Positions 21,704 to 48,837 of a stretch of 64,000 bases of DNA are shown here, one piece after another. A program made the translations under genes and the position numbers. Numbering within the stretch: position 1 is the first letter of the stretch; the number at the start of each line of letters is the position of its first letter. The notes beneath the pieces are model-generated. The model made no database searches. It was not told the origin of the DNA and worked only from the letters and a program-made list of their open reading frames with translations. The DNA lies in assembly GCA_025917655.1 (NCBI GenBank), contig CP084609.1:2046001-2110000 (forward strand). Direction: 5' to 3'. Source of the DNA: Chlorella sorokiniana. Its lineage: Eukaryota > Chlorophyta > Trebouxiophyceae > Chlorellales > Chlorellaceae.

Positions 21704-22075
21704 ATGGACTACTGCAGCCAGAAGTCGCTGAAAGGTGGGCAGCTGTCTAACCTTCTGCTCACACAGCTGTGGCCTGCAGTTCAGCCACAATCTGCATCGC
21801 TCCGTATTCCATCACCTTGCATACCCGCCCACGTCCCGCTGCAGGCCTCGCTAGGATCGCGTTGGATCCTTCCCGCCGCCTGCCCTACCGCCCTAGCCTG
21901 ACGCCCAACCTGTTGGCACCCATCGGCCCAGCGCTGCGACATGGGGCGCCCAGCACTGCCAGGCCCATCCAGACTGCGTCTCTCGGCAGTGATGACAATT
22001 TCGAGACGGTGAGTTGGCAAGCCTGAGCCTGAAGTGCAGCTGCAGGCTTTCGCTGGCTTGCGACAAGCCATCCCT
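21545..22075 (-). repeat. Dispersed repeat, inverted third copy (partial)
   Basis: Read as reverse complement, this stretch aligns over its whole length with about 46795-47340 and with 48465-49060. Shared blocks include the GGCGCCA.CATGGC block near 21580, the TTGCTGGGTTTG block near 21650, CAGCCAGAAGTCG at 21717 and the GGATCG..ACCGCCC region at 21855-21895. Divergence is visibly higher than between the two tandem copies. The homologous part covers only the small gene and its upstream DNA, not the membrane-protein exon half of the tandem unit. Confidence 0.8.
21704..22026 (+). CDS. Small protein of an unrecognised three-member family, copy A (70 aa)
   Basis: I do not recognise this family. 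Exon 1 21704-21734 encodes MDYCSQKSLK. Intron 21735-21844 is GT-AG, phase 1. Exon 2 21845-22026 continues GLARIALDPSRRLPYRP, TPNLLAPIGPALRHGAP, ARPIQTASLGSDDNFET and VSWQA, then stop. The same two exons, phase and stop recur at 47175-46838 and 48837-48512 on the opposite strand. Many differences between copies fall at third codon positions (AGG ATC/ATT, GAT/GAC, GAG/GAA). There is no transmembrane segment or signal peptide; the protein is basic and Pro/Arg-rich. A strong donor (ACG|GTGAGT at 22009) raises the possibility of a further exon instead of the VSWQA ending, but no convincing third exon was found downstream. Confidence 0.5.
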
Positions 22076-22760
22076 GCTGGTGGCGCGCAAATCTGAGTAA
22101 CCCCTTCCCTGTAACACATGTCAGAGCGTCGAACCTTCGAAGAGATTGAGGCGGGCAGCACAAAAAATCTCATGACCTGCGAGGGAATCATGAGATCAAC
22201 ACGGGCGGTCCCAATGGGGCAGACTGCAAAAGCAAGGGCTTCAAGCAGCGCGGCAGCCTGTGAGCGCAAGCGCATGCGCCATCGAACCTGATTGGTTGCT
22301 GGTGCAGCATGCTGCGCAGCAGAGCCGGTTAGCAGGAAAGAGGCGGGTGCTGTGGCCGGACATGCCATGTAGCCACCGACATGGCAGACGTCACTGCCGA
22401 TGGCCAGAAGACAATGTGTGGGTTGCAGGCAGCTCGCGCTGCGGAGGGGTGCATCGAAACCGCCGCTGCCGGCAGGACGGCAAGCTGCAGTGACCGCCCG
22501 TGAGATGCTGCTTCTTGCTGCTCTTGGGAGTCTGGCAGGCCGACAGGTTCCCATCAAGCCATACCATGTCGTGGAGGGGGAACTGGGGCATGCTGGGTTG
22601 TCACGGGAATTCGGGGCGCGCGCAGCAGGCTCGAGAGGTGGTGCACGGGCGGGATGCGAAACACCTCAGCGTTGAACCACGTTAGAACACACCACCACTT
22701 ATACCGCCAACAGCTCAGCGACGCAGTGCCAGGCAGCGGCTCACCTTGGACCCGACTACC
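22027..22760. other. Gene-free stretch before the BTB gene
   Basis: No conserved coding sequence was found in either strand over these 734 bases. It holds the end of the repeat copy (to about 22075), a perfect hairpin at 22167-22196 and the presumed promoter of the BTB gene. Short open frames here have no recognisable content. Confidence 0.5.
22167..22196. other. Perfect 9-bp inverted repeat with 12-nt loop
   Basis: ATCTCATGA at 22167-22175 is the exact reverse complement of TCATGAGAT at 22188-22196, with 12 bases between. It follows an A-rich run (CAAAAAA). It could form a hairpin in RNA or a cruciform in DNA. No function is assigned. Confidence 0.55.
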
Positions 22761-24423
22761 ATGGCTGAGGAGCAGCCCGGTGCCAGCCCATCAACCAAAG
22801 ACAGCAACCCTGCCCCCACAGCCCAGCCCCCAACCAGTCCGTGCCTGCCGCCGCGTCCTACCTGGGCGGCGCCCCTGCCGCCTTTGCCGCCCAAGCTGAC
22901 GTGCTGTTTGTGGCGGCGGGCGGCGAGGAGCTCCCCGCACACTCGCAGTTCCTGGCCCGCAGCTGCCAGCTCTTTGCAGAGATGCTGGACCCCAGCGGCG
23001 GCGTGGAGGGGCGGCCCGCCCGGGCGCCCCCTGCGAGTGCTGCTGCGAGCGCATGCTGCCGCCGACATCGCCCGAGCGCTGAGGGGCGTGTACCACCCTC
23101 ACGAAATCGCGGGGATGGCGGCGGGGCTGCGGGGAGCCGCTGCATACGGGGCCCAGCTGGATCTGGCCGCCTTCCTGCGGTGCGCGCCCTTGAGCAGTGC
23201 GCCTGACCGCGGAAGCGTGACTGCCAAGGTGTCGTTGCGTGCCCAAACATCCCGGAGGCTGCTCGCGTGCAGGCCGCAGCCACGCTGCACAAGCGCGACC
23301 CCTGCCCTCCCCTGCCGGCCCAGGTTTGGCCAGCTGGAGGCAGCGCTGCGCGAGCCCCTGGCCAGCCGCACGCCACGCATGGGCCAGCTGGTGCGCTTCC
23401 AGTTTGCGGCGTGGCTGGAGCTGGCGGAGAGGTGGGTGGCCCTTGGGAGCGCGCGGGCTGGGGCGCAGCGTGTGCCCGCTGGGCTTCCTGGGCTTTGCAG
23501 ACTGGAGGCCTGCTGGGCCCACCAAACGTTGTTAATCTGACTGGACATGAACCCAATCTGCTGCACTTTGTTCCGTGTTGTTGCTGGCAGGCACAGTCTG
23601 GGCGCGCTCCGCAGCTACTGCCTGGAATGCCTCCTGCACCTGCTGGCAGCCCCTGGCTGCACGGGGCGGGCGGAGGAGCCTGGGGTGGCCGATCTGCGCC
23701 TGGAGGCCCTCAGGTGGGCCGAGGGATACCGGCAGTACATGCAGAGGAGGGCAGCCGGTCCTTGTGCTGCAGCAGGCGGACAGCGAGCCTTGGTGTCAGC
23801 TGCTCCTGTCCCCCAAAAGTTGCGGTGGATGCCGGGGAGCAGAGGTTTGCATCGCAGCTGCTCCCCAGCACGTTGCCCCTGCTGGGAGGAGCACACAGCA
23901 GCTGGGCTGGCTTACAGCTCACACGCTTGCCCCGCTGGCCGCTGATCCAACCGCGGTGGTTCTCGACATAGTCATTGACCCCCCCCTCCTCCCCCAAACA
24001 GCAAGGCTGACCTGCTGCTGCTGCTGGACGGCATGGCTGCGGGCGTGCGACGCTGCCAGCAGGAGACATATATGCTGCGTGCCCGAGTGCCCTGCAGCGC
24101 CGCCGCTGCCGCCAGCCAGCCCATGCACGCCACGCAGGGCACCCCCGCAGCACTCGCTGCAGTCTGCCGGCTTCCTTCCTGGCGGAGGGGCAAGCCAGTT
24201 CAGCGCCGCTCCATCGACGCCGCCGTCGCCGCCGCCGTCGTCGTCGCTGCACGGCAGCCCCGGGTCGTGTGGTGGAGTGTACCGGCGGGCGGCAGACCAT
24301 GTGGCAGCTGTGGCGGTGCCCAAGCTGCGGGCGAGCGACATGGCCGGCAACCTGCCTGGTGAGGCCGCCATTGCTGCGTGGCGGCGCGTAGGCGACCTCT
24401 GCCGGATCGGCGGCGGAGCTTGA
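22761..24423 (+). CDS. BTB/POZ domain protein
   Basis: The BTB fold is read from ADVLFVAAGGEELPAHSQFL and ARSCQLFAEML (about 22895-22985), the classic start in which a hydrophobic strand leads to the A-H-S helix. Later pieces VLLRAHAAADIARALRGVY, HEIAGMAAGLRGAAAYGA and LDLAAFL are the second half of the fold. Further exons are helical: FGQLEAALREPL, LGALRSYCLECLLHLLAAPG and DLLLLLDGMAAGVRRCQQET. The end is a Ser/Pro-rich stretch then RASDMAGNLPGEAAIAAWRR, stop at 24421-24423. Such proteins often act as substrate adaptors for CUL3 ligases; that role is inference. The nearest ATG (22761) is one base out of frame with the BTB exon at about 22840, and a second frame change lies near 23015. Exon limits are therefore approximate. 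Confidence 0.65.
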
Positions 24424-24547
24424 CAACAGACTGCATTGAGTTATACACGCCAAAAAGAAGACGCATGTATAAGCGGAGGTGGCAAAAGTGAAGAAAGGCG
24501 CGGAGAGGGGAACGGTGTTCACGGCTGCAGGCGGAGGCGCGGCCGTT

Positions 24548-27500
24548 TCAGCTGCTTTGGCTGCCGCCCGCGCCCCGCTGCCGCCTGCCACCGCCTCCGC
24601 CGCATCGCCCAGCACCCGCTGGAGGTGCAGCGAGGGCGCCAGTACGGCGGCCGCCTCCGCCGCGCGTGCGCGCCAGCGGCCGCCTGGGGAGCCTCGGCGG
24701 CGGCGCTGTCAGCTGGGCCGCGCTCCCCGTTGCTGTGTGCCTCGGCCTGCGCCGCTGCCGCCCCTGCTGCCGCAGCCCACGCGGGCGGGTGCTGCCGTAG
24801 TAATACCGGAGCTCCCCTCGCTGGCGCCCGCTGCGATGGGGCGCCCTCAACCGCGACCGCGGCAAGCGCGGTGGCAGGCGCGGCGGTAGGCGCGCGGCAG
24901 GCGCGGTGGCAGGCACGGTGGCAGGCGCGGTGGCAGGCGCGGCGGCAGCTGCATCAGCAGGCGCGGCCTGCGCGTCAGTCGCCGTCGTTGCGGGCGCCAG
25001 CTGCTCCAGGGAGGCTGCCAGGGCGGCAGCCAGCATCGCCTCCTCCTCCTCCCTGCACACACCGCCGCGATCCGTGGCGCGATCTCTTCGAGTGCAGCAA
25101 CAGCAGCTCGAGGAGGCGTGAAAGGCAAGCCGAGGGCCGGGCGATCGGCCAGCAGCAAGCGGCGGCCAGGCGCAAGCCGGCGGCACAGCAGGCGCAGCGC
25201 CGCTCACGAGGTGCGCGGCGCCTCCACGCCGTCGCTGCCGCTGCCGCCAGCGGCCCGGTTGTGGGGGCGGGGGAGGTGGAAGGGCTTGGGCCTCCCCCGC
25301 CTTATCCAGCTGGCCGGCGGCGCCCGCTGGGTGAGGGCCGGCAGGTTGCCGGTCCTCCCAGCTCTCCTCCTGCCGCCCAGCCTGCTGACCCTCCTGGCCC
25401 TGCGGCTGGCCCTGCACCCTGGTCTGGTCCGCTTCTATCAGGGACGCCTCCAGAGCCAGCTGCAGCGCCTCCTCATCGCTCAGGTTCAGACCCGCCATAG
25501 CATCTGCCAGCCCCCGGCTGCCCCGCCGGGAAGCCGCGTCCCCGCCCTGCCGCCCCGCCTCTGCCTCCGCCTCTGCCTCCGCGGACAGCGAGCTCAGCAT
25601 GGCGGCCACGTCGGGCGGGCGGCGGCCGTTGGGGGCGCCGCGGCGCGCCGCAGGGACCAGGGCGGGCTCAGCGTGCGCGACATGGTGCGAGACAGGCCCT
25701 CGCCGTCATCGTCGGGCGAGCGCGGTGACGACGAGGCGGCGCTGGCGCTGGCCGCAGCCTCTGCCAGCTCGCCAGACAGGTTGCGCGAGGCCGTCACGTA
25801 GATGCTGCTGCTGGGGCGCGCCTGCGCGGCAGCGGCGGCCAGCGATGCGCGTCGAGCGGCGGCGAACGGAACAGTGGAGTCGCAGCCGCGCCCAGACCGA
25901 AATACTGTCAGCACGGCAGCCCGACTGCACAGCCCAAAGCCTGTTTCGCGCATGCTGCCTCCCAGCCTCCCCCACCATCATCAAGCGATGTATGCATGCT
26001 CAACAGCAACCCCCTGCCGCCCCCCCCTTTTTGCCCTTCCCCCTCACAGGTGCGGCAGCTCCTGCTCGGGTAGCGCCTGCAGGTCGGAGGGCCCCACCAG
26101 CTCCTCCACCCGCAGAGCCTGGTGCAGGAAGACGACGGAGGAGTCGTAAAAGTGGTCGGGCGGACTGCGGGGGAGGCAGAAGTCAGGGGGTGTGTGGGGG
26201 GCTGGGGGTAGGTGGGTGGGGGAAGGAATGTGAGCGCAGGGGCAGCGTGTGTGCGCAGCCCGACGGATGCGGCAAGCAGGGATCGCGCAAGGTGCGGGGC
26301 AGCACGTGGCATGCAGCAGCGCGCTGTCGTGGCGCGCATGGAAGCTGCGCGATGCTGGATGGGTGGGAGGGGAGTCGGTGTGCGGGGAGGCCGCCTGCTG
26401 CCCAACCAGACTCCCTGCAGCGCCTGCCCATTCCGCCATCCTGCATCGTGTGCTGCCCCCACACCCCCACGCCCCCAAGCGGGGCGCTGTTCCCGTCCCG
26501 TGCGTCGCGTTCCCCGCCCACCGCTGTTGTGGTCTCCCTCGAACGTGACCAGGTTCTTGTCCCCGGCATACGCTTGGAAGAGGCGCTCGCTGTGGTGCCG
26601 CGCCACAAACGTGTCGTCCAGGGCGTGGCCAAACTGCGCGGGGATGAAGCACTTGCCCACGGCATCCAGCGGCGCCACCGCATCCACCGAGAAACCCGCC
26701 CGCCGCCGCACGCTGCGCTTGAGCATCGCCAGGGCCACCTGCGGCACAGTGTGAAGGTGGCCGGGGGGGACGTAGCCAGGGTGGGGACTGCCACAGAGCA
26801 TGCTGGAGACCGAACGTGGATCGGGCGCCAGCACGGCACACCGAGCCCTGCATGCGCCAGGCGGAAAGCGCAGGGGCCGCCACCAGGGCCGCTGCACCTT
26901 GATCAGCGGCTTGGGCACGCGCAGCTGCTGGTCGGTGGCCAGCTCCATCATGAGGTCCACCAGGCGGGAGAAGGGGCTGTCCAGGACCTGTGGCGGTACA
27001 GGCAGTACAGAGGTATCGCAGAGGTACAAACGCTGCAAGGGACGCGCGCCACCCAGCAGAGGGCAGGGCAGAGCAGGCAGCGGGCAGGCAGGGCCTGAAG
27101 GCAGCCTCAGCCCACCATGCCGGCTATGCTGGGGTCGTGCTGGCTGTACAGCAGCGCAGTGACGGCGCCCATGGAGCGCCCCACAGGCCGATGGTGCTGG
27201 TGCTGCCTGCAGGGGCGGCTCAAGGGGGCCAGTTCGCAGCGACACCAGAGCGCAGCCGCTCGCGACTTTCAAGCTTGCCCCAGGATCCATCGCTTGCCTT
27301 GCATCGCTGAGTGCTATCCGCATGTACCGGCGTACCTTCATCCCGCAAGTACTGCACCACCGCCGCCAAGTCATCCACCTCAAACGCGCCGAGCGTCACA
27401 TAGCTTCCTTCGGACAGGCCCGAGCCCTGCACGTGCGCAAGGTTGAATGTGGGGCAGCGATGGGTGGAAAGCCCGTGGCAACAGGGTCAGGCATCACCGC

Positions 27501-28086
27501 CTGCTGCACGCACCGCAAAGTCAAAGGCCATGACCGTCATGCCTCGCGGCAGGCAGTGGTACAGTATCTCCTCCGCATCGCGCCGGCTGCCGCTGTTGCA
27601 GTGGCAGTACACGACGCAGGGCAGGCGCCCGTCGGAGGAGGTGACGACGCAGGGGCGATAGTGGCTGGCCTGCAGCTTCTGGCCCCGCCGGTTCTCCTGC
27701 AGTGAGCAGTGGGGCGGCCAGCTGCATGCTTGAGCCACCGCTGCAGCAGTGGATGTGTTGTCTGCCCTGAGCGCTCCAGATTGGCAGGCTGATTGGCAGA
27801 GAGGGCCCGGGTAGCGCATGCGAGCAGGGCAGCCCTGCTCACCAGCTGCACATCCAGGCGGTAGTAGCGGCGGTCGTATAGCCTGCGCGTCCCAACAACA
27901 AGAAAGGGGTGTCTAGCGGGAGCAGCGGTGCACCCACACTTAGTGGGTGCCAGCGGCAAAGGTTCGAAACCGGCATGCGCCCCTACCTGAAACTTGCGCG
28001 TCGCCCCCAACTAGATCTGCTTCTGTATAGGCATCGTCCCGCGGCGGACGGCACACCGCCGCGACCAGCTGATCCCAGAGATCCAT
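24548..28086 (-). CDS. Alpha/beta hydrolase with two C-terminal ubiquitin-interacting motifs
   Basis: Serine hydrolase fold of the plant type that begins MxQLVxxIIRPPR. Exon 1 (27987-28086) starts MDLWDQLVAAVCRPPRDDAY. Next exons give RRYYRLDVQL, RGQKLQASHYRP, PCVVYCHCNSGSRRDAEEIL, GMTVMAFDFA and GSGLSEGSYVTLG. The nucleophile elbow is LWGRSMGAVTALLYSQHDPS (about 27185), followed by VLDSPFSRLVDLMMELA. The acid and His parts are PAQFGHALDDTFV..FEGDHN. The tail carries two UIM-like helices, SDEEALQLALEASLIE (about 25480) and EEEEAMLAAALAASLEQ (about 25060), so it probably binds ubiquitin. The substrate is unknown. A Pro-Ala-Thr repeat follows UIM 2. The true stop is uncertain: 24548 is the end of the longest frame, and at least one frame change lies near 25640. 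Confidence 0.8.
24855..24955. repeat. GC-rich minisatellite, unit about 12 bp
   Basis: About eight tandem units close to GGCAGGCGCGGT with small variations. On the minus strand they encode a Pro-Ala-Thr/Val repeat after the second ubiquitin-interacting motif of the hydrolase gene. Unit length is mostly a multiple of three, so length changes could leave the frame intact. Confidence 0.7.
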
Positions 28087-28468
28087 CGTCCTAGGTTGTT
28101 GCTACGGCAGGCTCCGACTGGCGCCGCCGCTAGTCGGCCTAAGGCGACCAGAGCCGTGGTGGCGTGGCTGCCACAGCTTCAGGCACAGCTGCTCCTCTAC
28201 CCAGAAGCGCCCTTCGTTCACCCCGGCAAAGGTCAAAGCCTGAAGAGATCGCGTTGAGGGCCGGTGTGCTTGAGGATCCGTTGAACAGCACAGACGACGA
28301 GTATACGCAGTTGATCGACAAGTGCAAGGCTCCGGATGGCGCTTGGGGAACAACCACGCAAACCTGCGGTGTACATGAAGTGTACTTGGTCGGGTGCATA
28401 ACCCGGCGGGTCGCCGGGTCTGTGCAGCTCTCGAGGACATTGCTGCATCGCATGACCTCCCAGCAGCA
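28087..28468. promoter_or_regulatory. Divergent promoter region of hydrolase and RTF1
   Basis: These 382 bases lie between the start codons of the hydrolase (-) and RTF1 (+). No coding sequence or RNA gene was supported. Confidence 0.5.
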
Positions 28469-31400
28469 ATGAGCGAGTCCAGCCTCGACTCCGAGCTGCT
28501 TGCGGTGGCAGGCCGCAAAAGAGCGCGGGACAAAAGGCAAAGCCCAAGCGATTCCGGGTCCGAAGAAGTCTCTTCTGACGATGTGTCTTTGGACAGCGAG
28601 TCTTGGGATGGCAACAAAGCCGGCAGGCACGTTCTCCTTTTTGTCTCGTGCTGCACATGATAAGTTCACAACACGTAACATGTGATCGCTTTGCGACACG
28701 GTCACCGCGGCAGGTGCTGACCATTACCGCCGCTGCCAGTTGCGCCGCCTTCCCGCCCGTCACAGCCTGCTCGCTGTCTGCACCCTCTCCGCAGCAAGAA
28801 GCGCGGTGGCAGCGGCTTTAAGCCGCCTGCGCGCAAGCGCCAGGCCAGGGCGCGGGGCGCTGCCGCATCGGAGTCGGAGCAGGAGGGCGACGAGGAGTCT
28901 GAGGAGGAAGAGGACAGGCTGGAGATTGACGAGGAGGACCTGATTGAGGATGAGGAGGACCGCAAACGGTGAACCAAACTGCAGGGGGTCACCCATACCA
29001 AGGCATCCATCTTGTGAGGTGTACCAGGCATCGCGGCAGGGTGCTTGGCTCCGTGGGCGGGGCCTGTCCTGAGCCCGCGAGCTGAGCCGGCTGCCCTGCC
29101 CCTTGCATGCACGCAGCCTGGCGGCGATGACGGAGCTGCAGCGAGAGTTTGAGCTGGCCACACGCGCGGAGCGACGCAATCAGGAGCTGCTGCGCCAGAA
29201 GCTGCTGTCAAAGGTGGGTGGATGGGGTCAGATTTGTTGCGGGGACCGGGGTCTTTTCCCCGACACCCATCATCGCACTGGAGCCCCGCACCGTTTCCAG
29301 CCATACCATCTGTTGTTATTCTGTTGTTAGTGAGGGGCCAGCCGCATCCTGGCGTGCCTGGCGAGCAGAGTGCATGAGGGGCGTGTGCCTGCGCTGTTCG
29401 CCGCGGCGCAGAGCGACGCCAAGGCAGAGCGCGGGGGCCAAGGCGGCCAAGCGCGTGGGGCGGGCGAAGAGCGGGCGGGAGGAGCGGGAGGAAGCCGCCA
29501 AGAAGTCGGCCATGGAGGAGCTGCGGGCGGCGCGAGAGCGCAAGGCCCGCGGCGCGGAAGAGCGGTGCGCCGCTGCCGCCCTCGTTCACCCTTTCACCGC
29601 GGCCGGTCTGCTGGTGCATGCTGGGTTATGCTTCCTGCTGCTGTGCTGTGCTGTGCTGTGCTGTGCAAGCAGTATCATCGCCGGTGCGCAGCTGCCTATT
29701 CGCATCCCTGCGCTGGCCATGCAGCCTGAAGTTTCCCATCGCCCTTCTCCGCTCCCTCTTCCGCGTGCAGCACCCGCAAGCGGGAGGGCTCGGAGGAGCT
29801 GGAGGATGAGGAAGAGGATGGGGGCGGGGGGGCGGCGGCGCGGCCGGCGCGACGACCGCGACTCGGAGGAGGAGGGCGCTATCTCTGGTGCGGCCCGCCG
29901 CCACCCTCCCAGCGCGACGCCGTGCTGGCGCTGCGTGTGGGCTGCCGGCAGCTGACCCGCTCGGGCTGTTGGCTGCCGATGGAAGCGACCGCGTGCAGCC
30001 TTACTGGCGCCTGTGCTGATTACTGGTCTGCCGGCTGGCTTTTCCCTCCATTGCTGCAGACGAGGAGCTGTCAGATGTCGACAGGCGGCGCCTCTTCGGC
30101 CGGCGCGGATCAGACGTGCGTCAGCGTCGCGCTGCATGCGATCGGATGCTTGGCCGCTGCTCCTGCCCCAACTGTGGCGTGCAGCGGCATCAATGCAGGC
30201 GGCAGAGCCGGTCGCCCCCATGGGCTGTCGGGTGCCGGTGTGCTCAGCTTGATGCTATGATGCCGTCTTCATGCAGGACGGGGAGGATGAGGAGGACGAG
30301 GCGCCGCTGGAAGAAGTGAAGTTGATACAAGGTGGGGGAATGTGGCTGTGGCACCAGGTGCAGACGCTGCTGCGCCAGCGTCCGCCCTCAGCAGCAGCAG
30401 CCCGCCGCTTCCCCAGCCCAGCCTGCCCAGCCTGCCACTTGCGGCCCCCGTTGTTTCCGCGCGACCCTCGCTGCAGTGCGGCGCAGCAAGCTGGAGGAAT
30501 GGGTGAATGAGCCGTTCTTCGAGGACACCCTGCCCGGCTGCATGGTGAGCCGCCCGCGGGCCTGCCGGGCTGCTGCCAGCCGCGCCCCTCCGCCCAGCAG
30601 CTCACACCGCCGCTGCACCAAACACACTTTCCTGCCGAGGCGCGCAGCCTGTGCTGATCGCGGCAAAGATGGGCGGGGCCGACGAGCTTGCGTGCCGCAG
30701 CCTCCTTGTGCCGCCGCTGCCCCATCTCTACCTGTTCCCCCTCCCTCTTGTCTCTGCCCTATGCTGGACCCCCCTGCCCCACCTTTTCTACCCTCCCACA
30801 GGTGCGTGTTGTGGCTGGAGAGTACACCGACGCGAGCGGCATGCCCCAGCGCCGCTACCTGCTGTGCCAGGTGGTGGCGGTGGAGACGCGGGCGCCTGGA
30901 TACTACAAGTGAGGGGCATGGCGGCGCCTCGCCCACGCAGTCGCGTTCCACATGCTGCGCTTGCTGCATGCACTGACCTGCGCTGCAGGCTGTTTGTGGC
31001 TGCGGCGGTGTGGCACAACTCCCGCCCCTGTCCTGCTTGGCTGGAGCCACTTCTTCTTTTGTGGAGTGGATGAGGCGGTTTGTGGCGTGGGGGTATAGGT
31101 GGGGAAAGGCCAAGCAGGGGTTGTATGCCCGGCCCCGTCTGCAGGGACTCCGGCCAGGCGTGGCGCAACCCGTACCCCTTTGGCCCTCTCAACGAGAAGA
31201 CCAGCAAGTGGTTGGTGGTGGAGCGCGGCAGCAGCCAGCGCGGCATGCCGCTCGCGCTGGTGCGCTGGCGCTGATGCTTGCTCGTTGAGGGCTGCATCGT
31301 GCGCTGGGCTGGCTCGTGCATGCCCGTCGGCTGGCCACGTCTCTCCTCGTCTCTTCCTTGTCGCTGCCTTGTGTTTCAGCAACCCAAGTCGGCTGTTGTG

Positions 31401-33396
31401 TAGGGCCACCCCGACATCCACTTCTCCCTCCAATCGTGGTCACTGCTTTCCCAAGCCTTCCCCTCCCTCTTCCCTGCATTAGGTGTCCAACCACAGCTTC
31501 TCTGAGCACGAGTTTGAGAGCTGGCAGGCGGCGCTGAAGGACCAGGGGCGCCCGCAGCTCAGCCGCCGCGCCGTCAAGGAGGTGCATGACCGCATGGTCA
31601 AAGCCAACTCGTGAGCGGCTGCCCGACAAGCTTGGGGGTCAGGTCTGGCATGTACGGGCCCGCTGGCCGTCTCCCAGAATTCCTCCTTTCCGCACAGCAT
31701 GAGCTGCGTCACCTGACAGCAGCCGCCGGCGGGGCAGGCGATGTACTGCAGGCTTGAACCTGATTGTGCTGCCCCTGTGTTTGTACCGCAGGTACCGCTA
31801 CACCGACGAGGACGTGGCGCGCCTGCTGCAGGAGAAGCGCGCCAAGGGCCAAGCGCCGCACAACTTGGGTGCGGGAACTTGGGCCAGCGCTAAGCTCACG
31901 GTGCACGCCATGCGGTTGCGTGGCCTCCTCGTCTCCCCCTGCCGCCGACCCTCTCGCCGTTCCGCCGCCCCGCTGTGCAGCGCTGGAGAAGGCTCGCCTG
32001 GACGCGCAGCTGTCGTACGCCAAGGAGCAGGGGGAGGAGGAGAGGGCGGCAGAGTGAGGACCGCCGCTGCTGCGGGCCCCACCGCTGTCCGCCCTTCCTC
32101 ACGCATCCGCGGTTCGCCGGGCTCCTGGGCGCTGCGCTTGCGTGCCTCGCCTCCTAACCCACGCTGGCTGTTGCAACTTGTCGCGTCCCTGCCTGGCCCG
32201 CAGGCTGGAGGCGCAGATTGCAGCGCTGGGCGCTGTTCTGGAGGAGGGCAAGGCGCGGCGGCACAAACACAACATGGCGGACCTGAACAAGCGCAATGCC
32301 GACCGTAACTTCAAGGTGGGGCGCTATATGCACCCATGCTTGTAAAAACTTTGGAAGGGGGGCTGTTGGTGTGGGGCGGCTGGTGGGCAGGGTATGTGCA
32401 TGCGCCGCTTCATCCCTGCCGGTGCCGCAGTGATGGACTCACTTGGCCACATGTTGCGCCTCGACATGTTTCCTCTCCACTTCTTGAACTCGCGCACCCA
32501 CCCACTTGTTCACTGGTTTGCCCCATGGCCGCTTTCCGTTCAGAATGCGTTGGACAACGTTTCCAACCGGGTGGGGGCGACGGCTGGCTCCCAGGATGCC
32601 CGCACCTCTCAGTTGGATCCCTTCAGGCAAGTGCGGCGCTGGGGCTTTCCGCGCCGCGCAGCTGGCCCTTTGCATGCACCCTGGCCCCATCCCTGGCCTT
32701 CTTGTGGTTGAGCTGCGCTGCGTGTTTCTGCTTTCAGCCGCCGAGCCACGCGGCCCATGATCTACTGGAGCACCAAGCGGCAGCAGCAGGGTGAGCGGCG
32801 GCGGTGTGTGTCGATCTGATGCCCTGCACTTGCTGGTCTGCTTCCTGCTTGCTGCTTAGAAGCGGCTGCAGCCCGAAGCCCTCACCAACGTACTAGCGCG
32901 CATGCTGACCCTCCGTGCAGCCGAGGAGGGTGGCGAGGGGGAGGCGCAGGCTGGCGATGCCCAGCCCGCCGCCGTGGAGCAGCAGCAGCAGCAGGAGGGT
33001 GACGAGGCGGGGCAGCGCGGCCCGCAGCGGCCCAACCTGGACGAGATTGTGGACCTGAGCCAGCTGGACCTGTCCATCCTGCAGCAGCCGGCACGCATGC
33101 CGCCCCTGGCGCGGGTAAGCTGACTTGAGGGGCAGGCTGGTGGCCCGCTTCTCAAGTTTGGGGCCTCGCTGGGTTCACTGCGCGGACGTGGCGTGCGAGG
33201 CGACTGCGAGGCAAGGCTGCCATGGTTTGGATGGCAGGCTGTTTGTGAATGTGGTCTCTCACATATGTGCCCCCTCTCTGCACATATCCCCCTGCCGTGC
33301 AGAAGCTGCTTGGGCCCACGTGGCGGCCTCGGCAAGCCCCCCGGCGCCCGCATTATATCCCTGGAGGAGTTCAGGCGCAGCGGGGCCATGCACTGA
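28469..33396 (+). CDS. RTF1: RTF1, Plus3-domain subunit of the Paf1 transcription elongation complex
   Basis: Nuclear elongation factor; RTF1 links the Paf1 complex to Spt5 and promotes H2B ubiquitination. The N-terminus MSESSLDSELLAVAGRKR is acidic and Ser-rich and is followed by long Asp/Glu runs. Then come AAMTELQREFELATRAERR (about 29126), the Plus3 entry VRRSKLEEWVNEPFFEDTLP (about 30476), VRVVAGEYTDASGMPQRRYL, CQVVAVETRAPGYYK, WRNPYPFGPLNEKTSKWLVV, VSNHSFSEHEFESW and KEVHDRMVKANSYRYTDEDV. The C-terminal coil is LEAQIAALGAVLEEGKARR, NADRNFKNALDNVSNRVG and RPMIYWSTKRQQQ, then NLDEIVDLSQLDLSILQQP and the end SLEEFRRSGAMH. Intron 1 (28627-28794) has a GC donor, phase-consistent. The last junction is one base out of frame. 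TGTAA lies at 33447-33451. Its 3' exons have a decayed copy downstream. Confidence 0.93.
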
Positions 33397-39829: not shown

Positions 39830-40021
39830 TTCTATAAAGTAATTGGTGCGTTGATCGCAACAAACGTTCAATGATCTATCTGCGTTCTAGGGTACCCTCA
39901 ACCCCTCCCCCGGCGTACCGCCTGTGCGGTTGCTTCGAGATTCAGCTCTTTGTCACGCTCAATGGGCTTCCTAAACGTACTGTTACACCTCCTCACATGA
40001 CGCAGCGTCCCCGATCACAAC
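39830..40021. promoter_or_regulatory. Compact divergent promoter of deaminase and DDHD lipase genes
   Basis: Only 192 bases separate two opposed start codons, the shortest such gap in the window. It is AT-richer than its flanks near 39835-39890 and must contain both promoters. No motif is named with confidence. Confidence 0.55.
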
Positions 40022-43000
40022 ATGGACTCGCCTGAAGTGCATATTGAGTTCATTTACAGGCCCCTGGACCCTTCATTAGTGCGTTGGTACAGTTATAGAG
40101 CCCGATATGATCAGAAAGGCGAGAATGCGGGCGGGGGCCCTCGTGCGCTGGGGCTCTGCCGGTGGGCGCCGGCGCGCTCGCAGCCTCAACGCTCTGCCAA
40201 CCCATCTCGTGCGCCGCCCTGCCGCAGAGCTCTCCAAGGCCACAGAGGTGCCCCACCGCGGCTCCCTGCTGCGCTTCTGCGACGCCGACAGCGCAGCGCT
40301 GGAAGCTGCCTACAGGTGGGTTGTGCGGCGCCAGCGGGCCCACCGGCACTACAGCTCCATGCGCTCCATGACGCACAGCCTCAGCACCCACCTGTCCCAC
40401 GCTTCTGTCAGCGACAGCTGTCCCTCTTTCATGATTGTAGATCTCGGCAAGAGGACCTGGACAAGCTTTGGTGGGAGGAGGAGGCTGAGCTACAGAAGGG
40501 GGACGCGGAGCCAGCCTCTGCCGCCGCCCCTGCTCCGTCAGACGCGGGCGACGGCTGGGGGCCTTCATGGGACGCGACTGCGCGGGTGTGGACATAAGCC
40601 TCATATCTCGCTGCCGCCTGTGCAATTGCTCCATCGCTTTTGCAACCTGTTACCATTCCTTCAAAGGGATTGGAGGGCGCCGTGGAGGTTGAATGTGGCA
40701 TGAATGATGCCTCCGCTGTCCAGGCTTTCCAGCCACACTGATCGCCGTCCTCCCAACCTGCACCCGTTCCTGCATCTACACCTCACAGTCTCATGCGACT
40801 CCATTGAATTTTGCTTGCGCCTCGCCCGCAACCCTCAATGGCTGCTGCGCAGATGGCGAGGCGGGTGTGCTGGTGCGCAGCGGCGCATACGAGGTGGACC
40901 TGCCCCGCCGCCAGCTGCGCCCCTGCTACTGGCCTGCCAGCCGCCACCGCTGCCTGCGCGGCACCTGGTTCGCGGAGAAGGGCGGCGAGTGGGTGCCGCT
41001 CAAGGTGTGCGGGGTGGATGGAGGGGCCGGTTGCCAGGGTGGCGCAGCTGCGACAGAACGCCGCTCCGCCCTTGCTGGGCTGATCATTGTGCCCCCAGCA
41101 GCGCTGCGGGGGCGGGACTTGCTGCCGCCTACACCTTGCCTAGCAGCCTCCTGCCACTGCCATCGCCGCCCTAGTGCACTGCTGTGCCGTCACTGTACCG
41201 CCGCTTCATCGCCGCAGGAGTCGCTGGCTGAGCAGGTGGAGGAGGGCTTCCGCCAGGCTCTCTGGCTGCCGCAGCGCGGCCGCCTGGCGGCGCAGCCCGG
41301 CGGCGGCTACGCCTCCCGCCTCGAACTGACCACCGCCGTGGAAAAGGGGCTGTACGCCCTCTTTGCCTCGGGTGAGGTGGGGCACGGGGCTGTGGGAGGG
41401 GTTCAGACTGTGGCGGCCTCCCCCTCCCGCTTCCTTCCTCACTTAGTAGCCCCAGGGTCTGCTGCCTCGCTGCTCGCTCTCCTGCAACCCGCCCCCACCC
41501 TGCTTCTGCAGAGGACGAGGTGTTTCTGTGCCAGGAGACGGGCTGGGGCTGGCTGCGCAAGATCGGCGCCTCGGCCTCAGCGGGGCAGCAGCGCCTGCGC
41601 CTGCGCCGCGGCTACGAGCAGCCCGCCAGCAGGGTGGGTGCGGGCTTGGGTGCTGCACGCATGCGCCACGTGGCTTGCAGGGCTAACCGCGACGCCGTCC
41701 CAACGCTTGCCGAGGAGCCCTGGTTGCAGGGCGCTGCCTGCAGCTGCCCTCTGGCTGCTCCCGGTGGGCTCGAGTCTGAACTATCACCACCTACCCGCTG
41801 CATGGTGCCGCCGCCTGCCCCCTGCACAGGCTCTGTTGGAGAAGGAGGCGGACCTGCGGCAGGAGGAGCTCGACGAGGAAGCTGCGGGCACACCTGTGTC
41901 CCGCCTGGTTCTAATAGTGCATGGCATCGGGCAGAAGCTGCAGGGAGCCAACATAGCGCAGGTACCGCTGGCCTGCGCCGGGCTGGGCAGGCAGCCGTGC
42001 TGTCTGTGAGGCGGCCCTGCCGCGGCAGCGGCGCCTGCAACCCGCACACTGGGACTGCTGTGTTTTGAAGCTTGCCTGCTGTCTCTGCGGTGTGCCTCAG
42101 GATGCGGCCAGCTTCCGCTCGGTGCTGCGCCAGGTGGCGCAGGACCAGGTGCAGCAGGGGCTGCTGGAAGAGCGGGACACGGGTGCGGGACGGCAGTACT
42201 GCAGGCTGCAGCCGATCTGTATTGCTGCGCCGGCCTGCTTCAGCCTGCCTGCACACTCCTGCCTGCTGCCAGGCTGGGACTTGTTTGCCTTGAGCCGACT
42301 GGGCTGTCAGGCGACGTCTTTGCGTGTCAAGTGCTGGCATGCACAGGGATGCGCCACCCGATTGTGCCTGCGCCGCCCTCACCTCCCTGCAGGCCGCACC
42401 GAGGTGCTGCCGGTGCAGTGGCGCAAGCACCTTCACATTGAGGCCGACGCGCTGAGCCGGCGCCTGATGCCGCCGGGCATCCCCGCGCTGCGCCAGGCAC
42501 GCCGCACTTGCTTGGGCCGGCGAGGCAGCCAGAGCAGAGGCCTGTGTCATACTGGCTGCGTTCTAAGCCCCTGTCCCCCCAAACGTTGCCTGCACGCCAG
42601 CCTGTGGTGGAGGACTGCCCACCTACCCACCCTCCCTGGGTCCCCCCCCCCCCCACCCCACCCCCGTTCTTCAGGTGTTGCACTCGACCGTTGTGGAGAT
42701 CCTGCTCTTCATGACCCCGGCCCACCGCGCCGACATTGTGGCCACCCTGATCACCTCCCTCAACGCCGCCTACGCGCGCTTCCGGTGCCGCAACCCGCGC
42801 TTCAAGGCAAGCTCCCAAGCTTGCGGCTTGAAGCGAAAGAGCCATACCCGGCCGCTCTGCAGAGCAGCAGCTTGCCTGCGTCCTGTGCATATGGTAGCAC
42901 TGGGCCGTGCAGGGGGCCGTGGGCTTGGGTGCAAGGCAGCCTGCGCAGCGCTGCGGCCGCCGCTGATGCTGCTGATGGCCGCATTCTTGCCCTCCCCCTT

Positions 43001-45881
43001 CCCCCTTCCCTCAGGGCTCTGTGTCCCTGCTCGCTCATTCCCTGGGTACCGTGCTATGTTATGATATACTGTGCGCGCAGCCGCTCTCGCCGCAGCTGGT
43101 GGAAAGTGCCGGGTTGCTTCCGCACGACGCCGCTCCCGGCCCCGCCCCTGGGCAGCCCTCCCCAGCGGCGTCACCACGCGCAGCGGCGGCAGCGGTGCTC
43201 GGCGGCGGGGAGGCGTCTCCAGGGGGAAGCCGCCGCCCGGGCAGCCCCTCGGCCGCGCTGCTGCAGGAGCTGTCTGTCGCGGCTGCGCGCAGACAACCAG
43301 CGGCTGGCGCTGCAGCTGGAGGTATCTCGGGCGGAAGGCGGCGCGCACCACGCCGCCACCAGCACCGCTGCTGTGTCGGCCTTGTCGCCTGGGAAGCAGC
43401 AGCACGGACTGTATACAGGGCAGGATGGCTCGCCGCCACTTTGGCCGGCTTTGGACTTCAGGTGAGGCCCAGGCGGCGCCTCCTTTGCTGGGAGACGCCG
43501 CTGCCTGGTGGCCGCTGCCGCCAGCTTCTTGGTGTGCCTACCCTGCTGTGCACCTCCACCTGCCCCCAGCGTCCCTCCGCTGGTTTTGCTCGCCGCATCG
43601 CTCGTGCTTACCACTCACATCCTCCCATCCCGCTCCTCACGCTGTTCTTCACGCAGCGTGGACGCTTTGGTCATGCTGGGTTCCCCGCTGGGCTGCTTCC
43701 TTGCTTTGCGTGGGGTCAGCGCTGACGCAGGCGCCGGCCTGGGCAGCGCTGCCAGCGGGCCGCTCATGCAGGTGGGTCGCAGGGAGGAGCTGGCCCTGTT
43801 GGGGTTCCTGACACTGATCCAGAACTGCCTCGCTGTGCCAGCTGCAAGCGGCCGCCTGTGCTAGTGACAAGGCGTGCGCCCTGCTGCCAGTTCGTGACCT
43901 GGCCTCGCTTGCTTTTCTGTGGCGGCTGGCGCCTTGCCGTCGAGCCGCGCTGCAGTGGCCGGATCCCATCCGAGCTATGAAGCGACTCCTCAGCGCTAAC
44001 GCCTCCACCGATGCGCCCCCATTGCATGCAGCTGGCCCCGGGGCAGCGCTACTCGCCCGACGGTCTGCCGGCGGTGCGGCGCCTGTTCAACGTATACCAT
44101 CCCTACGACCCGGTGGCGCACAGGTTGGCGGCGGTGCTGGCTGGATGAGGGAGTGGGGTGTGGTTGGGTGGGTGGTGGGTGAGGGGGCTGGCTGGTTGAG
44201 GGAGAGGGGTGTGAATAGGTGGGTAATGGTAAAGGGGTTGGGGGCTTGCGAGGTACGTGGGGTGGATGGGTGTGTGGAGGAAGGGAAGGGAGCAGGAGGG
44301 CATGATGCACCACCGCCTCTGCAAGCAGTCCATGGCTCCCGCCACCCCACAGCCCATCGCCTCGTTGATTCTTGCCTCTCTCGTTGATCGCCTCCCCACT
44401 TCAATTCACCCTCTCGCCTTGCCGCCCTCCCCCACGACCCACCCTGCGCTTCGTGCAGGGTCGAGCCTCTGGCGCAGCCGTCGTCAGAGGTGCAGCGCGC
44501 CCCCTTTGTGCCCCTGTACAAGGGCGGCAAGCGGATCCATCTGGCGGTGCAGGCGCGCTGCCTATGCTGCGCTGAGGGGGCCGGCCAGCATCGGCTGCTG
44601 GCAGTGACTGCCGCACCTAGCCATGAGGGGCATCGCTTGAAAAAGCCAGAGCGCATAGATCACAGCGTGAACCAGCCATGTTAGCGATGTCTGAGTGGTG
44701 CGCTGGTGCTTGCTCTACTGCAGGAGTTCTCAGAGGATGTGGGCACCGCCGCCAGCCGCCTCGGCACCTCTCTCCTCAGCAGCCTCGCATTTGCCAAGTT
44801 CAAGGGCAGCGCGGCATACAAGGCAGAACACGACGGCAGTGAGGAGGGCGGCAGCGCGGCCCGGGCGGAGCTGGCGGCGGCGGCCGCCAACGCGGCGGAG
44901 GAGGCGGCAGCAGCGCGCCTGGCGGACGGCAGGTCGCCCCCGCGCTGGCGGGCGGCGGCTCGTATGCGGAGGAAGACTTGTGGGAGGATGAGGGGCAGCC
45001 GCAGCAGCAGCAGCAGGTGCAGCCGCGGCAGCAGCGGGGGCAGCCGCCGCAGCAGCTGGGGCGACAGCAGCGGCAGCTGTACGCGTCCCTGAGCTTCGGC
45101 ACGGTGGATGACGGGGAGGCGGGGCGCACCCTGTCGCCAGAGGCATCCGCCAGCGACGCCTCCCCCGCCAAGCCGGCCCACGGCGCTGGGTCGCCTGCTG
45201 CAGCTGGCATCGGTGGCAGCGGCGGCGACGAGGGCCGCGGCGGGATCGCAAGGGTCGCCGACGGCCTGGCTCCGGCAGGCAGCAAGACCGCACAGGGCAG
45301 GCTGGACTTTGTGCTGCAGGCAAGGCGTCTGCGATGCGCTGCTGTATCCGGGCTCAAAGGGCTGCTCCCTGCCTCTATACTTGCAGTACTGCTAGTTCCA
45401 CTCGTTCTGTTGCTGGGCCCATGCCCTCCCCTGCTCTGGTTGCACCCACCAGCGGCCCTCGTGGCCTCCAGCGCGCCCCCCCCCCCCGACACCCCCACAC
45501 ACACGCCCCTCTCTTCCTTCCCACCCCACACCACCCCCACCGCCACCATGTGCACACATTTCCCCCACCACCACCACACCTCCAACCCCCTCATCCCCCC
45601 CGCAGGAGTCGTCCCTGGAGAACCAGTACCTTTCAGCCCTGTCGGCACACTTTGCGTACTGGGCCAGCCCGGACGTCGCGCTGCTGCTCCTGCGCGCCGT
45701 GCACGGCCTGGACGTGCTGACTGGCAGCCCAGTTGTGGAGGCGGCTGGGGAGGAGGCCGGCGAGGCCGGCGCGGATGCAGCCGCGGCGACCGCGGCAGCA
45801 CCCCTGGAGGGCGGCGGCAGTGGCGGGCGGCCGCGCGGCACGCCCACCTCGCCGCGGCAGCACCTGGTGGCGCTGCCCTGA
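40022..45881 (+). CDS. DDHD-domain phospholipase A1 (SGR2/PA-PLA1-like)
   Basis: Intracellular phosphatidic-acid-preferring phospholipase family; plant SGR2 acts at the vacuolar membrane and animal DDHD1/2 at ER and Golgi. ATG 40022 begins MDSPEVHIEFIYRPLDPSLV then RWYSYR. Next are LLRFCDADSAALEAAYR, EDLDKLWWEEEAELQ, VLVRSGAYEVDLPRRQLRPC, GTWFAEKGGEWVPL and LELTTAVEKGLYALFAS. The lipase core is SRLVLIVHGIGQKLQGANIA (about 41900), VLPVQWRKHLHIEADAL and SVSLLAHSLGTVLCYDIL (nucleophile Ser in HSLG, about 43040). The DDHD domain starts VDALVMLGSPLGCFLALRG (about 43660), continues RLFNVYHPYDPVAHRVEPLA and VPLYKGGKRIHLAV, and ends GRLDFVLQ-ESSLENQYLSAL with ALLLLRAVHG, stop 45879-45881. About fourteen exons are recognised. 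TGTAA lies at 46217 and 46224. Linkers near 43100-43350 and 44850-45100 are low-complexity and may contain frame errors. Confidence 0.9.
44140..44295. repeat. G-rich degenerate repeat in a DDHD lipase intron
   Basis: Irregular GGGTG/GAGGGAG units on the + (coding) strand, with related phrases GGCTG-GATGAGGGAGTGGGGTG and GGCTGGTTGAGGGAGAGGGG about 40-45 bases apart. It is intronic, between exons at about 44033-44126 and 44460. Many G runs make quadruplex formation possible. Confidence 0.6.
45475..45605. repeat. C/CA-rich tract before the last large DDHD lipase exon
   Basis: Poly-C (11 C at 45477) followed by CACCC, CACA and CCCCCAC units up to the acceptor CGCAG at 45605. It behaves as an extended polypyrimidine tract for the final exon. 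Confidence 0.6.
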
Positions 45882-46342
45882 GGGGGCGCTGGAGGCCGAC
45901 ATTGTTGAAAAATGTTGCACCCTCACCTGGCGGCATTGCCTTGAGCATGGTAGGCGCCGGCGGCGCAGCTCCGTGCCGTTGCGCCGCTGCCTGCGGGAGG
46001 CCAGCATGCGTTGCCCGCCACCCCACCCCTGACTGCCCAGCTGGCATCTGCGTGCCGGAGCGGACGCAACCGAACATGTCTGGCCACAGCACCTGCCTTT
46101 CCCCTTTTGACCAATGCCACCAGTTGCACTAGCCATCAACATCAGTTTTGACAGCTCATGCGCTTGCGCTCATGGGCGCAGCGCTGCTCAAGCCCCCGGA
46201 GTTGCAGGTCGTGCATTGTAAATTGTAAGCATTCTGCTCAATCAGTCTCAAGTATCCTTCAATCAGGCCATGACCCTCTGTACTCCCCACAAAAAAAGAC
46301 GCAGCTTGGATACAAGGCAAGCGGGGCTGTTACATGTTTCCG
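45882..46342. other. Convergent 3' intergenic region with polyadenylation signals
   Basis: This holds the 3' UTR of the DDHD lipase with TGTAA at 46217-46221 and 46224-46228. Facing it on the minus strand is TGTAA (TTACA at 46330-46334), nine bases past the stop at 46343. No gene was seen. Confidence 0.5.
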
Positions 46343-46684
46343 TCACATGTTTCGGGCAAGTTCCTCTGCCAGCAGGCTGCGAAAGCAGTCAAGGCGCGCT
46401 TTCGTTTGCTGCATTGCACTAAACGATGCCGTGCATGCCTGCGCAGAACGTATCAATGTGCACAGCAGCCCGGCGATGGCAAGCACCTGCCACTTGAGCA
46501 GCACGCTGTGGCCAGCTGGAAGGTGTGGCTCCCAGACCGCGTCATAGCTGATAACGGCGAACACAATGGTGCCTGCAATGAGGATGCACGCTGCGGCTCG
46601 CTTGATCACAGTGTGGAAGCTGCGCTCAGAGACCGCCAGATCCGCCTCCAGCTGGTCTACCTGGCCGAGCAGCCGGTCTGCCCT
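46343..46684 (-). CDS. C-terminal exon of a coiled-coil protein with two transmembrane helices
   Basis: Open exon of 113 codons ending in a stop at 46343. It starts after an acceptor (CGCCTGTGCAG, 46685-46695) with RADRLLGQVDQLEADLAVSE, an amphipathic helix. Two hydrophobic helices follow, AAACILIAGTIVFAVISY and LKWQVLAIAGLLCTLI. The end is MQQTKARLDCFRSLLAEELA. There is no ATG at the exon start, so the 5' part must be upstream. The donor at 46855 (AAG|GTGAAC) of the neighbouring small-protein exon 46856-47031 would join it in phase 0, giving a 182-residue three-exon protein from ATG 47175. That join is one reading; independent genes are possible. Function is unknown. Confidence 0.5.
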   Translation of the reverse strand, partial: RADRLLGQVDQLEADLAVSERSFHTVIKRAAACILIAGTIVFAVISYDAVWEPHLPAGHSVLLKWQVLAIAGLLCTLIRSAQACTASFSAMQQTKARLDCFRSLLAEELARNM

Positions 46685-46837
46685 CTGCACAGGCGACCAG
46701 AGGCAATTCCATCATACAGGTGCGATTCGACACTGGCAGGCACGACGTGTGTGTGGCACGCGCCGGCAGCCAAACAGGGCACCACAAGGCGATGGGTGGC
46801 CTGACAGCCGCTGGCAGCCCGCAGCTGCACTCTTTGC

Positions 46838-47175
46838 TCAGGCCTGCCAGTTCACCTTGCCGAAAGTCGGGCTGGTCTGCCCATCACCACTGCACGGCGC
46901 AATCTGGATGGACCCGGCGGTGTTGGGCGCGCCACGCCGCGGCGCTGAGCCAATGGCTGGCACCAGGTTGGGCGTCCCGCCCGGGCGGTAGGGCGGCAGG
47001 CGGTGAGGTTCCAACGCAATCCTGGCGAGGCCTGCCGCTGCACGTGGGCGCGTATGCAAGCAGGTGAGTGCGGAGCACGGCAGATGCTGGCTCGAACTGG
47101 AGGCCACAGCTATGTGAGGGCAGAAGGATTTGCCAGTTGCCTACCTCTTGGCGACTTCTGGCTGCAGCCTTCCAT
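46838..47175 (-). CDS. Small protein of the three-member family, copy B (74 aa, or 5' part of a 182-aa protein)
   Basis: Exon 1 47145-47175 reads MEGCSQKSPR. The intron 47032-47144 is GT-AG, phase 1. Exon 2 47031 downward reads GLARIALEPHRLPPYRP, GGTPNLVPAIGSAPRRGAP and NTAGSIQIAP. It then either stops at 46838 after VNWQA or leaves at a donor after FGK (46855) to join the membrane exon 46343-46684. The exon layout and start match the copies at 21704 and 48837. This copy has diverged near the end, where SPTFGK replaces SDDNFET and a few codons are inserted. The reading frame is intact. Confidence 0.5.
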
Positions 47176-47635
47176 TTACTGGAGTTCTGAGTTCCTTAAG
47201 GATGTAGAATGGCTCGTGGGAAAACAAACCCAGCAACTGGCTGGAATTAGGACCGTCCAAGGGATGACAACGCTGTCCGCTGTTGGCGCCGGCATTGCAA
47301 TGCATTGTGGCGCCAGCATGGCGTGGCAGCTCCCGTCAGATGTGCGGCCAGCTGCAAACCGCTACTCTTCCGCTTTATGTTTGGCTCGCTGCGCTTGCAG
47401 CTCGTTTCCCGCAGCCCGCTCTCTAGCCGGGAGGTGTTGGGTGGGGTGGCCCTCCCAGGCAAGGGTTGCGTGTAATACCGATTTTCTGACACCCAGATAC
47501 TTGCTTGTAGCGGCTTTTGCCGCTCCAAATGTCGTCTCAGTTGCTGCTGCCCTTGCTGGTATCCTGGGTGGGCTTACACACAGCTAGCTGTTCCCCTTAT
47601 AACCCTTTGCAGGCCATGTTCATGTTTTAAGTCGG

Positions 47636-47911
47636 TTGGCCACTGCGCCGTGGCTGCGAGCGTCCACGTGGGCGGGAGCCCGTGCTGAGCACGGCGAGCG
47701 TGATGTGAGGGTGCGAGCGGGGAAACAACCGGCAGAGGGTCAGCGAACCCCTTTTCTGTTCACCTTTAAAGGGAAGGTTACTTACTTCGTGGTGGGATTA
47801 TTCGCGCTGTGGGTCATGCTGATGGTGAGCCACAACCTCATCACCTTCACCGCCTTCCTCTGCTCGGCCTTCTCAATGTGCTGTGCTTTTGTCATCATTT
47901 GCATGGTCTAA
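47636..47911 (+). CDS. Exon encoding a small two-helix membrane protein, tandem copy 1
   Basis: The open frame begins without an ATG, so it is probably a last exon; the 5' part is unknown. The conserved portion starts at KQPAEG. Hydrophobic helices are VTYFVVGLFALWVMLMV and LITFTAFLCSAFSMCCAFVI, separated by SHN, with a stop at 47909-47911. The equivalent exon in unit 2 (49424-49645) keeps length, frame and hydrophobicity but differs at over half of its residues, whereas the flanking DNA is much more alike. Confidence 0.4.
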   Translation: MATAPWLRASTWAGARAEHGERDVRVRAGKQPAEGQRTPFLFTFKGKVTYFVVGLFALWVMLMVSHNLITFTAFLCSAFSMCCAFVIICMV

Positions 47912-48511
47912 CCATTTGACTACTCGTGGGCAAACCTGCTATAAGACATGTTCGCCTGACATAGCCTGCCAGATTCTGGCGCAACACAGGGGCCTGCACC
48001 TCAAGCGCCGATGTAAAGCCAGTGTGCAGCACTGCCGCGCACGACGGGCAGGCCCAAGCCGCAGCTCCTCCCATTCAAACATGACGCTGTCCACACGCTT
48101 GCAGTCCACGCTTCTGACCGGAAAGAAGTACCCTGCTCAGCGCTGTTCCGCGCGCTGCCGTCTCCTCCTCATTGCAGCTGCTTGCACAGCGGCGCCAAGC
48201 AGCAGCTCCTGAAACCAGGCTGGGCTGGCGGCCAAAGTGTTCAGCCCTTTGCCACAGTCAGCAGTAGGCCGGAATAGCAGTGCTCCTGGGAGGGACGGCA
48301 TCAGGCTGCCCGCTGCATGACCATGACGACGACGACGCGGAGAAGAGGCGGGACACATCGCTGTACAACATGTACACATGTGCATGCTACCTGGCGCTGT
48401 GGGGCAGAGGCTGTGCATCCTGACCTCCGGCAATCTGGCAGAGGCGGTGCTGCCCGCGGTAGGCGATGGGTGGCCTGACAGCCGCTGGCAGCCCGCAGCT
48501 GCACTCTTGGC

Positions 48512-48837
48512 TCAGACCTGCCAACTCACTGTTTCGAAGTCGTCGTCACTGCCGAGAGATGCAGTCTGGATGGACCTGGCGGTGTTGGGCGCTCCACGCC
48601 GCAGCGCTGGGCCGGTGGCTGCCACCCGGTTGGGCGTCCCGCCCGGGTGGTAGGGCGGCAGGCGGCGAGGAGGATTCAACGCAATCCTGGCGAGGCCTGC
48701 AGCTGCACGTGGGCGCGTATACTCGATGGAGCACGGAGCACGGCAGATGCTGGCTCGAGCTGGAGGCCACAGCTATGTGAGGGCAGAGGGTTTGCCAATT
48801 GCCTACCTCTCGGCGACTTCTGGCTGCAGCGTTCCAT
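48512..48837 (-). CDS. Small protein of the three-member family, copy C (71 aa)
   Basis: Exon 1 48807-48837 reads MERCSQKSPR. The intron 48697-48806 is GT-AG, phase 1, the same length (110) as in copy A. Exon 2 48512-48696 reads GLARIALNPPRRLPYHP, GGTPNRVAATGPALRRGAP, NTARSIQTASLGSDDDFET and VSWQV, then stop. Its C-terminus is nearly identical to copy A although copy A sits 26 kb away on the other strand; copy B in the sister tandem unit has diverged more. It has the strong donor ACA|GTGAGT, as in copy A. Confidence 0.5.

Follow-up and report, generated by a model that had tools for sequence, protein, structure and literature searches.

A repeated two-exon frame of Chlorella sorokiniana may be the 5′ part of a duplicated small membrane-protein gene

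A frame of about 70 codons in two exons occurs three times in a stretch of 64,000 nucleotides of the Chlorella sorokiniana genome (C8:2046001-2110000, termed the window; the genome comprises 38.8 Mb in 15 contigs). A preliminary description had presented these copies as an unrecognised family of proteins of about 70 residues. We think it somewhat probable that they are the 5′ part of a small, lineage-restricted membrane-protein gene of three or four exons (gene A) that was duplicated together with a divergently arranged frame (B). "Lineage-restricted" refers here to the lack of any confirmed match in Pfam, PDB, IMG/VR, and GTDB, which bears out the earlier statement that the sequence could be placed in no family. 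The family is thus without a match and a frame of it is probably translated, but the length of about 70 residues does not hold throughout: a fourth copy has no stop codon at the expected place, and two of the copies continue into a membrane exon.

Copies of gene A and the exon beyond the common stop

The three copies in the window lie where they had been described, c1 at 21704-22026 (+), c2 at 48837-48512 (-), and c3 at 47175-46838 (-). As described, each has a 31-nt first exon, a phase-1 GT-AG intron (110, 110, and 113 nt in c1, c2, and c3), and a second exon that reads GLARIAL...V[SN]WQ[AV]-stop, giving products of 70, 71, and 74 amino acids. When the 38.8-Mb genome was searched at the DNA level, c1, c2, and c3 were among the matches listed (at least three). 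The genome-wide search with the protein sequence that the preliminary description had proposed, run with the second exon of c1, added a fourth copy, c4, at C8:1959311-1959463 (-). The ATG of c4 is at C8:1959592, on the same contig as c1-c3 and about 86 kb from the window.

By sequence comparison, exon 1 of gene A occupies 21704-21734 (+) in c1, where it ends in phase 1, 48807-48837 (-) in c2, and 47145-47175 (-) in c3. Exon 2 is taken up to a donor-like hexamer, GTGAGT in c1 (21845-22008, +) and c2 (48530-48696, -) and GTGAAC in c3 (46856-47031, -). The frame as first described runs on from there to stops ending at 22026, 48512, and 46838, respectively. In c1 the extension is the 18 nt at 22009-22026 (+), the VSWQA-stop codons, which begin with GTGAGT. 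The VSWQ codons of c1-c3 thus coincide with the position of a phase-0 GT donor. The stop that follows V[SN]WQ[AV] is common to c1, c2, and c3 but absent from c4, in which the exon-2 frame stays open for 172 amino acids. At the donor site c4 reads GTGGTGGGC, which holds two candidate GTs three bases apart (GTGGTG or GTGGGC), both in phase 0.

The stop of c3 falls within a predicted second intron, GTGAAC...CTGTGCAG, of 171 nt and phase 0 at 46685-46855 (-), which is homologous to c4. The c4 counterpart is 176 nt long, and 108 of 165 aligned intron sites (65%) agree between the two copies whereas 57 differ. DNA homology between c3 and c4 extends through intron 2 into a third exon that follows CTGTGCAG (score 33 versus a maximum of 21 in 300 shuffles, with the first 60 nt excluded), and in both copies the phase of the donor matches that of exon 3.

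Exon 3 of c3, at 46343-46684 (-), has 113 codons plus TGA and encodes a helix, two membrane segments, and a second helix. Its frame is closed upstream by a TGA, and on reading by eye neither c3 nor c4 has an ATG ahead of the first membrane segment; an upstream exon is therefore needed. In c4, exon 3 is modelled as 72 amino acids, a predicted 83-nt intron, and a further 27 amino acids. The full modelled proteins have 182 (c3) and 171 (c4) residues, with membrane segments starting at residues 101 and 128/129 in both. When aligned as protein, the c3 and c4 exons agree at 26 of 96 residues, with 45% nucleotide identity, and the second codon position is the most conserved (0.54, versus 0.43 and 0.39). 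The join across c4 intron 3 aligns the pattern QAC...S[FY].A....K.RLD..R with a local score of 63 (shuffle P = 0.0035 in one run and 0.005 in another at the strictest setting); without the join the score is 43 (P = 0.065 at the strictest setting).

Neutral drift of exon 3 to a mean identity of 0.46 or 0.52 left the open frame and both membrane segments standing in 0 of 1500 runs each, and among 4000 random open frames only 21 had two membrane segments and 2 had them at the places found in exon 3. The guanine-plus-cytosine content by codon position is coding-like (0.65/0.46/0.70 and 0.73/0.41/0.71), and the exon-3 frame has the top codon score of the six frames. AlphaFold2, given the single sequence of c3 exon 3, modelled a two-helix hairpin (mean pLDDT 83.3, pTM 0.56); a search for fold kinship gave 243 PDB matches at E values up to 10 and none at 0.001.

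No remnant of exon 3 was found in c1 or c2. Beyond the gene, c1 and c3 alone share a block at 22236-22364 (+) in c1 and 46195-46075 in c3 (73% identical), which had no other match in the genome search. The distance from the end of exon-2 homology to this block is 188 nt in c1 versus 621 in c3 by self-comparison, from which we infer that c1 lost the membrane exon by deletion. In c2 the absence has another origin. Self-comparison resolved a tandem duplication into one unit at 46787-48288, running from c3 intron 2 to exon 1 and including B, and a second at 48461-50007 that holds c2 and its B. The left edge of the second unit lies in the intron 2 equivalent, and c2 therefore received no exon 3.

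The pentamer TGTAA is the poly(A) signal of green algae. In keeping with this, each of six light-harvesting complex loci examined carries a sense-strand TGTAA past the match, within 1.5 kb (strand and place judged by eye). TGTAA occurs at 22110-22114 (+), 83 nt past the c1 stop, and 8 nt past the exon-3 stop of c3; none was found near c4 within the 2500 nt examined. Given this signal and the missing exon 3, a product of 70 amino acids is natural for c1, if expressed. Such a length may thus be the true product in c1 and c2 only, with VSWQA-stop the probable true C terminus of c1.

Constraint and divergence in gene A and frame B

The preliminary description had noted many differences at third codon positions. 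Over exon 1 and exon 2 as far as GTGA, we find the changes spread evenly over positions 1, 2, and 3 in all six pairs (c1-c2, 9/9/13; c1-c3, 15/13/16; c2-c3, 10/10/12; and against c4, 13/19/22 for c1, 16/19/20 for c2, and 15/16/15 for c3). A lean toward third positions is limited to the last 17 or so codons of c1-c2, with 6 of 8 differences in a by-eye count of a region chosen afterwards. Nor is the ratio of nonsynonymous to synonymous rates (dN/dS) well below 1, as had been anticipated for a protein under constraint: the NG86 method gave 0.52 for c1-c2, 0.92 for c1-c3, 0.91 for c2-c3, 0.58 for c1-c4, 0.70 for c2-c4, and 1.05 for c3-c4. The pooled ratio of proportions (pN/pS) was 0.79, a value equalled or undercut in 27% of 3000 neutral simulations on the fitted tree. 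All four copies remained free of stops in 24% of 3000 neutral runs, and the absence of stops and a low pN/pS occurred jointly in 6.3%.

The indels speak for a frame. In exons 1 and 2 all 10 pairwise cases have a length divisible by three, whereas 7 of 29 do in intron 1 and the 5′ flank; the 10 cases, which are non-independent, trace to four distinct events. In all four copies the highest codon score of the six belongs to frame 0, with a margin over the runner-up that falls to 0.04 in c2. Equal rates at all codon positions had been named as the sign that the frame is a passenger in a repeat; over these 70 codons the rates are indeed largely equal, but a mere passenger is opposed by the frame-keeping indels and by exon 3. 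The front frame is weakly conserved as protein, and a frame is probably translated.

Beside c2 and c3, on the opposite strand and divergent from A, lies a short frame, B, that contains two membrane segments; it is found at 47759-47911 (+) in the first tandem unit and 49466-49645 (+) in the second, each from a candidate start. Between these two, dN/dS is 0.48 and dS 0.82, and the frame and its segments were kept in 0.7% of 3000 neutral runs. Contig C1 holds two more units, found by a DNA search with the B region. In one (L052), B is intact, with 66 amino acids from an ATG, and no A was found beside it. In the other (L053), B has a one-base break and is accompanied by a fifth A-like copy, c5, whose alignment with c1 spans 300 columns at 61% (E = 1e-8). 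The GTGAGT is retained in c5, as is an open exon of 125 codons whose two hydrophobic stretches are weaker (1.49 and 1.45). B frames of other units were placed at L052 4527-4727, L053 about 1400-1560, and L008 5870-6073. Copy c4 also has a B-like frame, and the 3′ flank of B is common to c4 and the second tandem unit (61%, E = 1e-5). An antisense frame adjoins B.

Divergence is faster in the membrane exons of both A and B than in introns and flanks. Between c3 and c4, exon 3 is 45% identical, versus the 65% of intron 2. Within the tandem duplication B has diverged the most, c2 and c3 differing in it at 52 of 150 sites versus 47 of 427 in the left flank and 77 of 354 in the right (Fisher P = 4e-10 and 0.004). 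The pair on contig C1 gives no support for acceleration there, since its B region changes no faster than its surroundings (identity 0.87-0.90 versus 0.78-0.94). The faster divergence suggests either diversifying pressure on the membrane exons or homogenisation of the flanks through gene conversion. A dS of 0.82 in B beside flanks differing at 11% and 22% favours at least some gene conversion. The exon-2 tail of c2 resembles that of c1 and the tail of c3 that of c4, although c2 and c3 are tandem duplicates (46838-46910 and 48512-48590, compared with 21970-22026). A c2 tail like c1 in surroundings like c3 points to conversion, and on these alignments ectopic gene conversion of the exon-2 tails is likely.

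Upstream of the ATG, c1-c4 have in common a conserved block of some 60 nt (21625-21685, +, in c1), and within it TTGGACNGTCCAA is intact in c1 and c4. This palindrome was considered as a special promoter element and set aside, as its three places in the genome equal the count for a reversed control. The third place (L051) has short weak DNA matches alone and no family member.

Weighing of the readings

The proposed explanation is that the two front exons encode a basic, Arg/Pro-rich stretch resembling a transit peptide, to which the third exon of c3 and c4 would add the membrane part once intron 2, with the stop seen earlier, is spliced out. The front exons are amphipathic as well as basic: residues 1-55 have a net charge of +5 to +9 and an 11-residue hydrophobic moment of 0.71-0.76. 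Their sequence constraint is loose, as it often is in transit peptides. A would then be a small hairpin protein of an organelle membrane, while c1 and c2, lacking the membrane exon, would make at most a soluble version of about 70 amino acids. B would be a membrane partner expressed in the opposite direction from a promoter region common to both and possibly cooperating with A in one membrane, and the A-B unit would have been duplicated on two contigs.

Several observations weigh against this explanation. The front exons have dN/dS values near 1 and low codon scores (-0.07 to -0.18, on a scale where 35 kinase-exon stretches gave 0.41 and 1606 random open frames -0.32). At the donor, c3 (GTGAAC) and c4 (GTGGTG or GTGGGC) have weaker sites than GTGAGT, which is borne by c1 and c2, the copies without exon 3. 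Intron 3 of c4 was chosen to match c3, so the score of the join is favourable by construction. Beside c2 and c3 only candidate starts can be given for B, and the B-like frame of c4 has no significant similarity to the other B frames. Copy c5 lacks an ATG at the homologous place and has a changed front frame, its exon 3 shows no significant similarity to that of c3 or c4 (P = 0.06-0.12), and another frame ties with it in codon score (-0.23).

Much of the same evidence would suit the view that all A copies are decaying duplicates, a once-coding frame now carried along in a segmental duplication. A dN/dS near 1, a pooled pN/pS not below neutral (P = 0.27), the loss of the exon in two of four copies, and the loss of the ATG in c5 are what decay would leave. 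This view is unlikely, as it must accommodate indels that keep the frame, an exon 3 that holds its frame and membrane segments at 45% identity, and the dN/dS of 0.48 in B. We consider it still less likely that the copies form a family of two-exon proteins of about 70 residues ending in V[SN]WQ[AV] and that exon 3 is part of something different. The start, splice sites, phase, and stop common to c1-c3 would fit such a family, as would the TGTAA 83 nt past the c1 stop and the third-position lean in the last codons of c1-c2. It is opposed by c4, which has no stop there, by an exon 3 that needs an exon upstream, by donor and exon-3 phases that agree in c3 and c4, and by equal rates over codon positions.

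The conserved element might also be a regulatory or non-coding RNA unit, made of the promoter block and intron 1, in which the frame is incidental. Indeed, conservation in intron 1, and in the block some 70-20 nt upstream of the ATG, is roughly that of the exons. This we regard as highly improbable: the window has no Rfam match at the gathering score, the indels keep the frame, exon 3 has a protein signature, and the genome-wide count of TTGGACNGTCCAA does not exceed that of its reversed control. A separate search for an RNA gene or tRNA in the window found none.

Known systems, other features, and meaning

No relatives of the modelled proteins were confirmed in Pfam, where no match appeared up to E = 10, or in PDB, IMG/VR, and GTDB. 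Among viral and prokaryotic sequences, 12 and 23 stretches fitted the pattern, none confirmed. The best PDB match of a front-exon profile was the ASHI chain of 9f5x (residues 2-34, E = 0.36), followed by unrelated proteins at 0.48-0.53. ASHI, which we take to be the complex I subunit NDUFB8 of Chlamydomonas, shares SLRGLAR.AL near its N terminus; the likeness is confined to the front end, and nothing is shared with exon 3. An origin of the front end from ASHI/NDUFB8 was rejected given the weak match, and PF05821 had no match in the genome at E values up to 10. The likeness is a lead only.

The mitochondrial calcium uniporter (MCU) is built of a helix, a membrane segment, a short loop, a membrane segment, and a helix, with DxxE in the loop. 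Exon 3 of gene A has the same order of elements. However, its loops, SYDAVWEPHLPAG in c3 and ATPEEVWYDRI in c4, lack DxxE, and there is no Pfam or significant fold match. The wtf spore-killer genes of fission yeast are small multi-copy genes for membrane proteins. They offer a loose parallel to the present frames in these traits and in fast divergence, short and long forms, and signs of gene conversion; their anatomy differs. Orphan (lineage-restricted) genes are mentioned in a paper on the green alga Chlorella sp. MEM25 (PMC12902096). Gene A is like these in its small size, loose constraint, and lack of a match in the libraries searched, and unlike them in belonging to a pair that is duplicated, divergently arranged, and of defined exon anatomy.

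Elsewhere in the window, 2 of 10 submitted frames matched Pfam. The frame at 53922-55070 (+) matched MatE (E = 2.8e-8), and the one at 3657-4331 (-) gave a sub-threshold SNF2-related match (E = 4.7e-5). A CP26-like exon from this genome has chlorophyll a-b binding proteins as its nearest PDB entries (top E = 3.7e-70; first entry 8bd3, which comes from Chlorella ohadii), in keeping with an algal source. The stretch at 59058-59231 is self-complementary by self-comparison, with inverted-repeat matches of 161 and 86 columns at 71-77%.

A more far-reaching reading, which we hold to be very improbable, is that A and B form a two-component membrane system in evolutionary conflict. The promoter, front exons, and introns would be held while the membrane exons are driven apart, and c1 and c2 would act as soluble modifiers; the conflict might concern recognition (of mates or of self versus non-self), defence against algal viruses, or the spread of a selfish pair. 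As to gene A itself, these copies illustrate that a stop codon just past a splice donor can disguise the front of a gene as a complete mini-gene. They also provide a case in which two small membrane-protein frames, divergently arranged, have membrane exons that change faster than introns and flanks.

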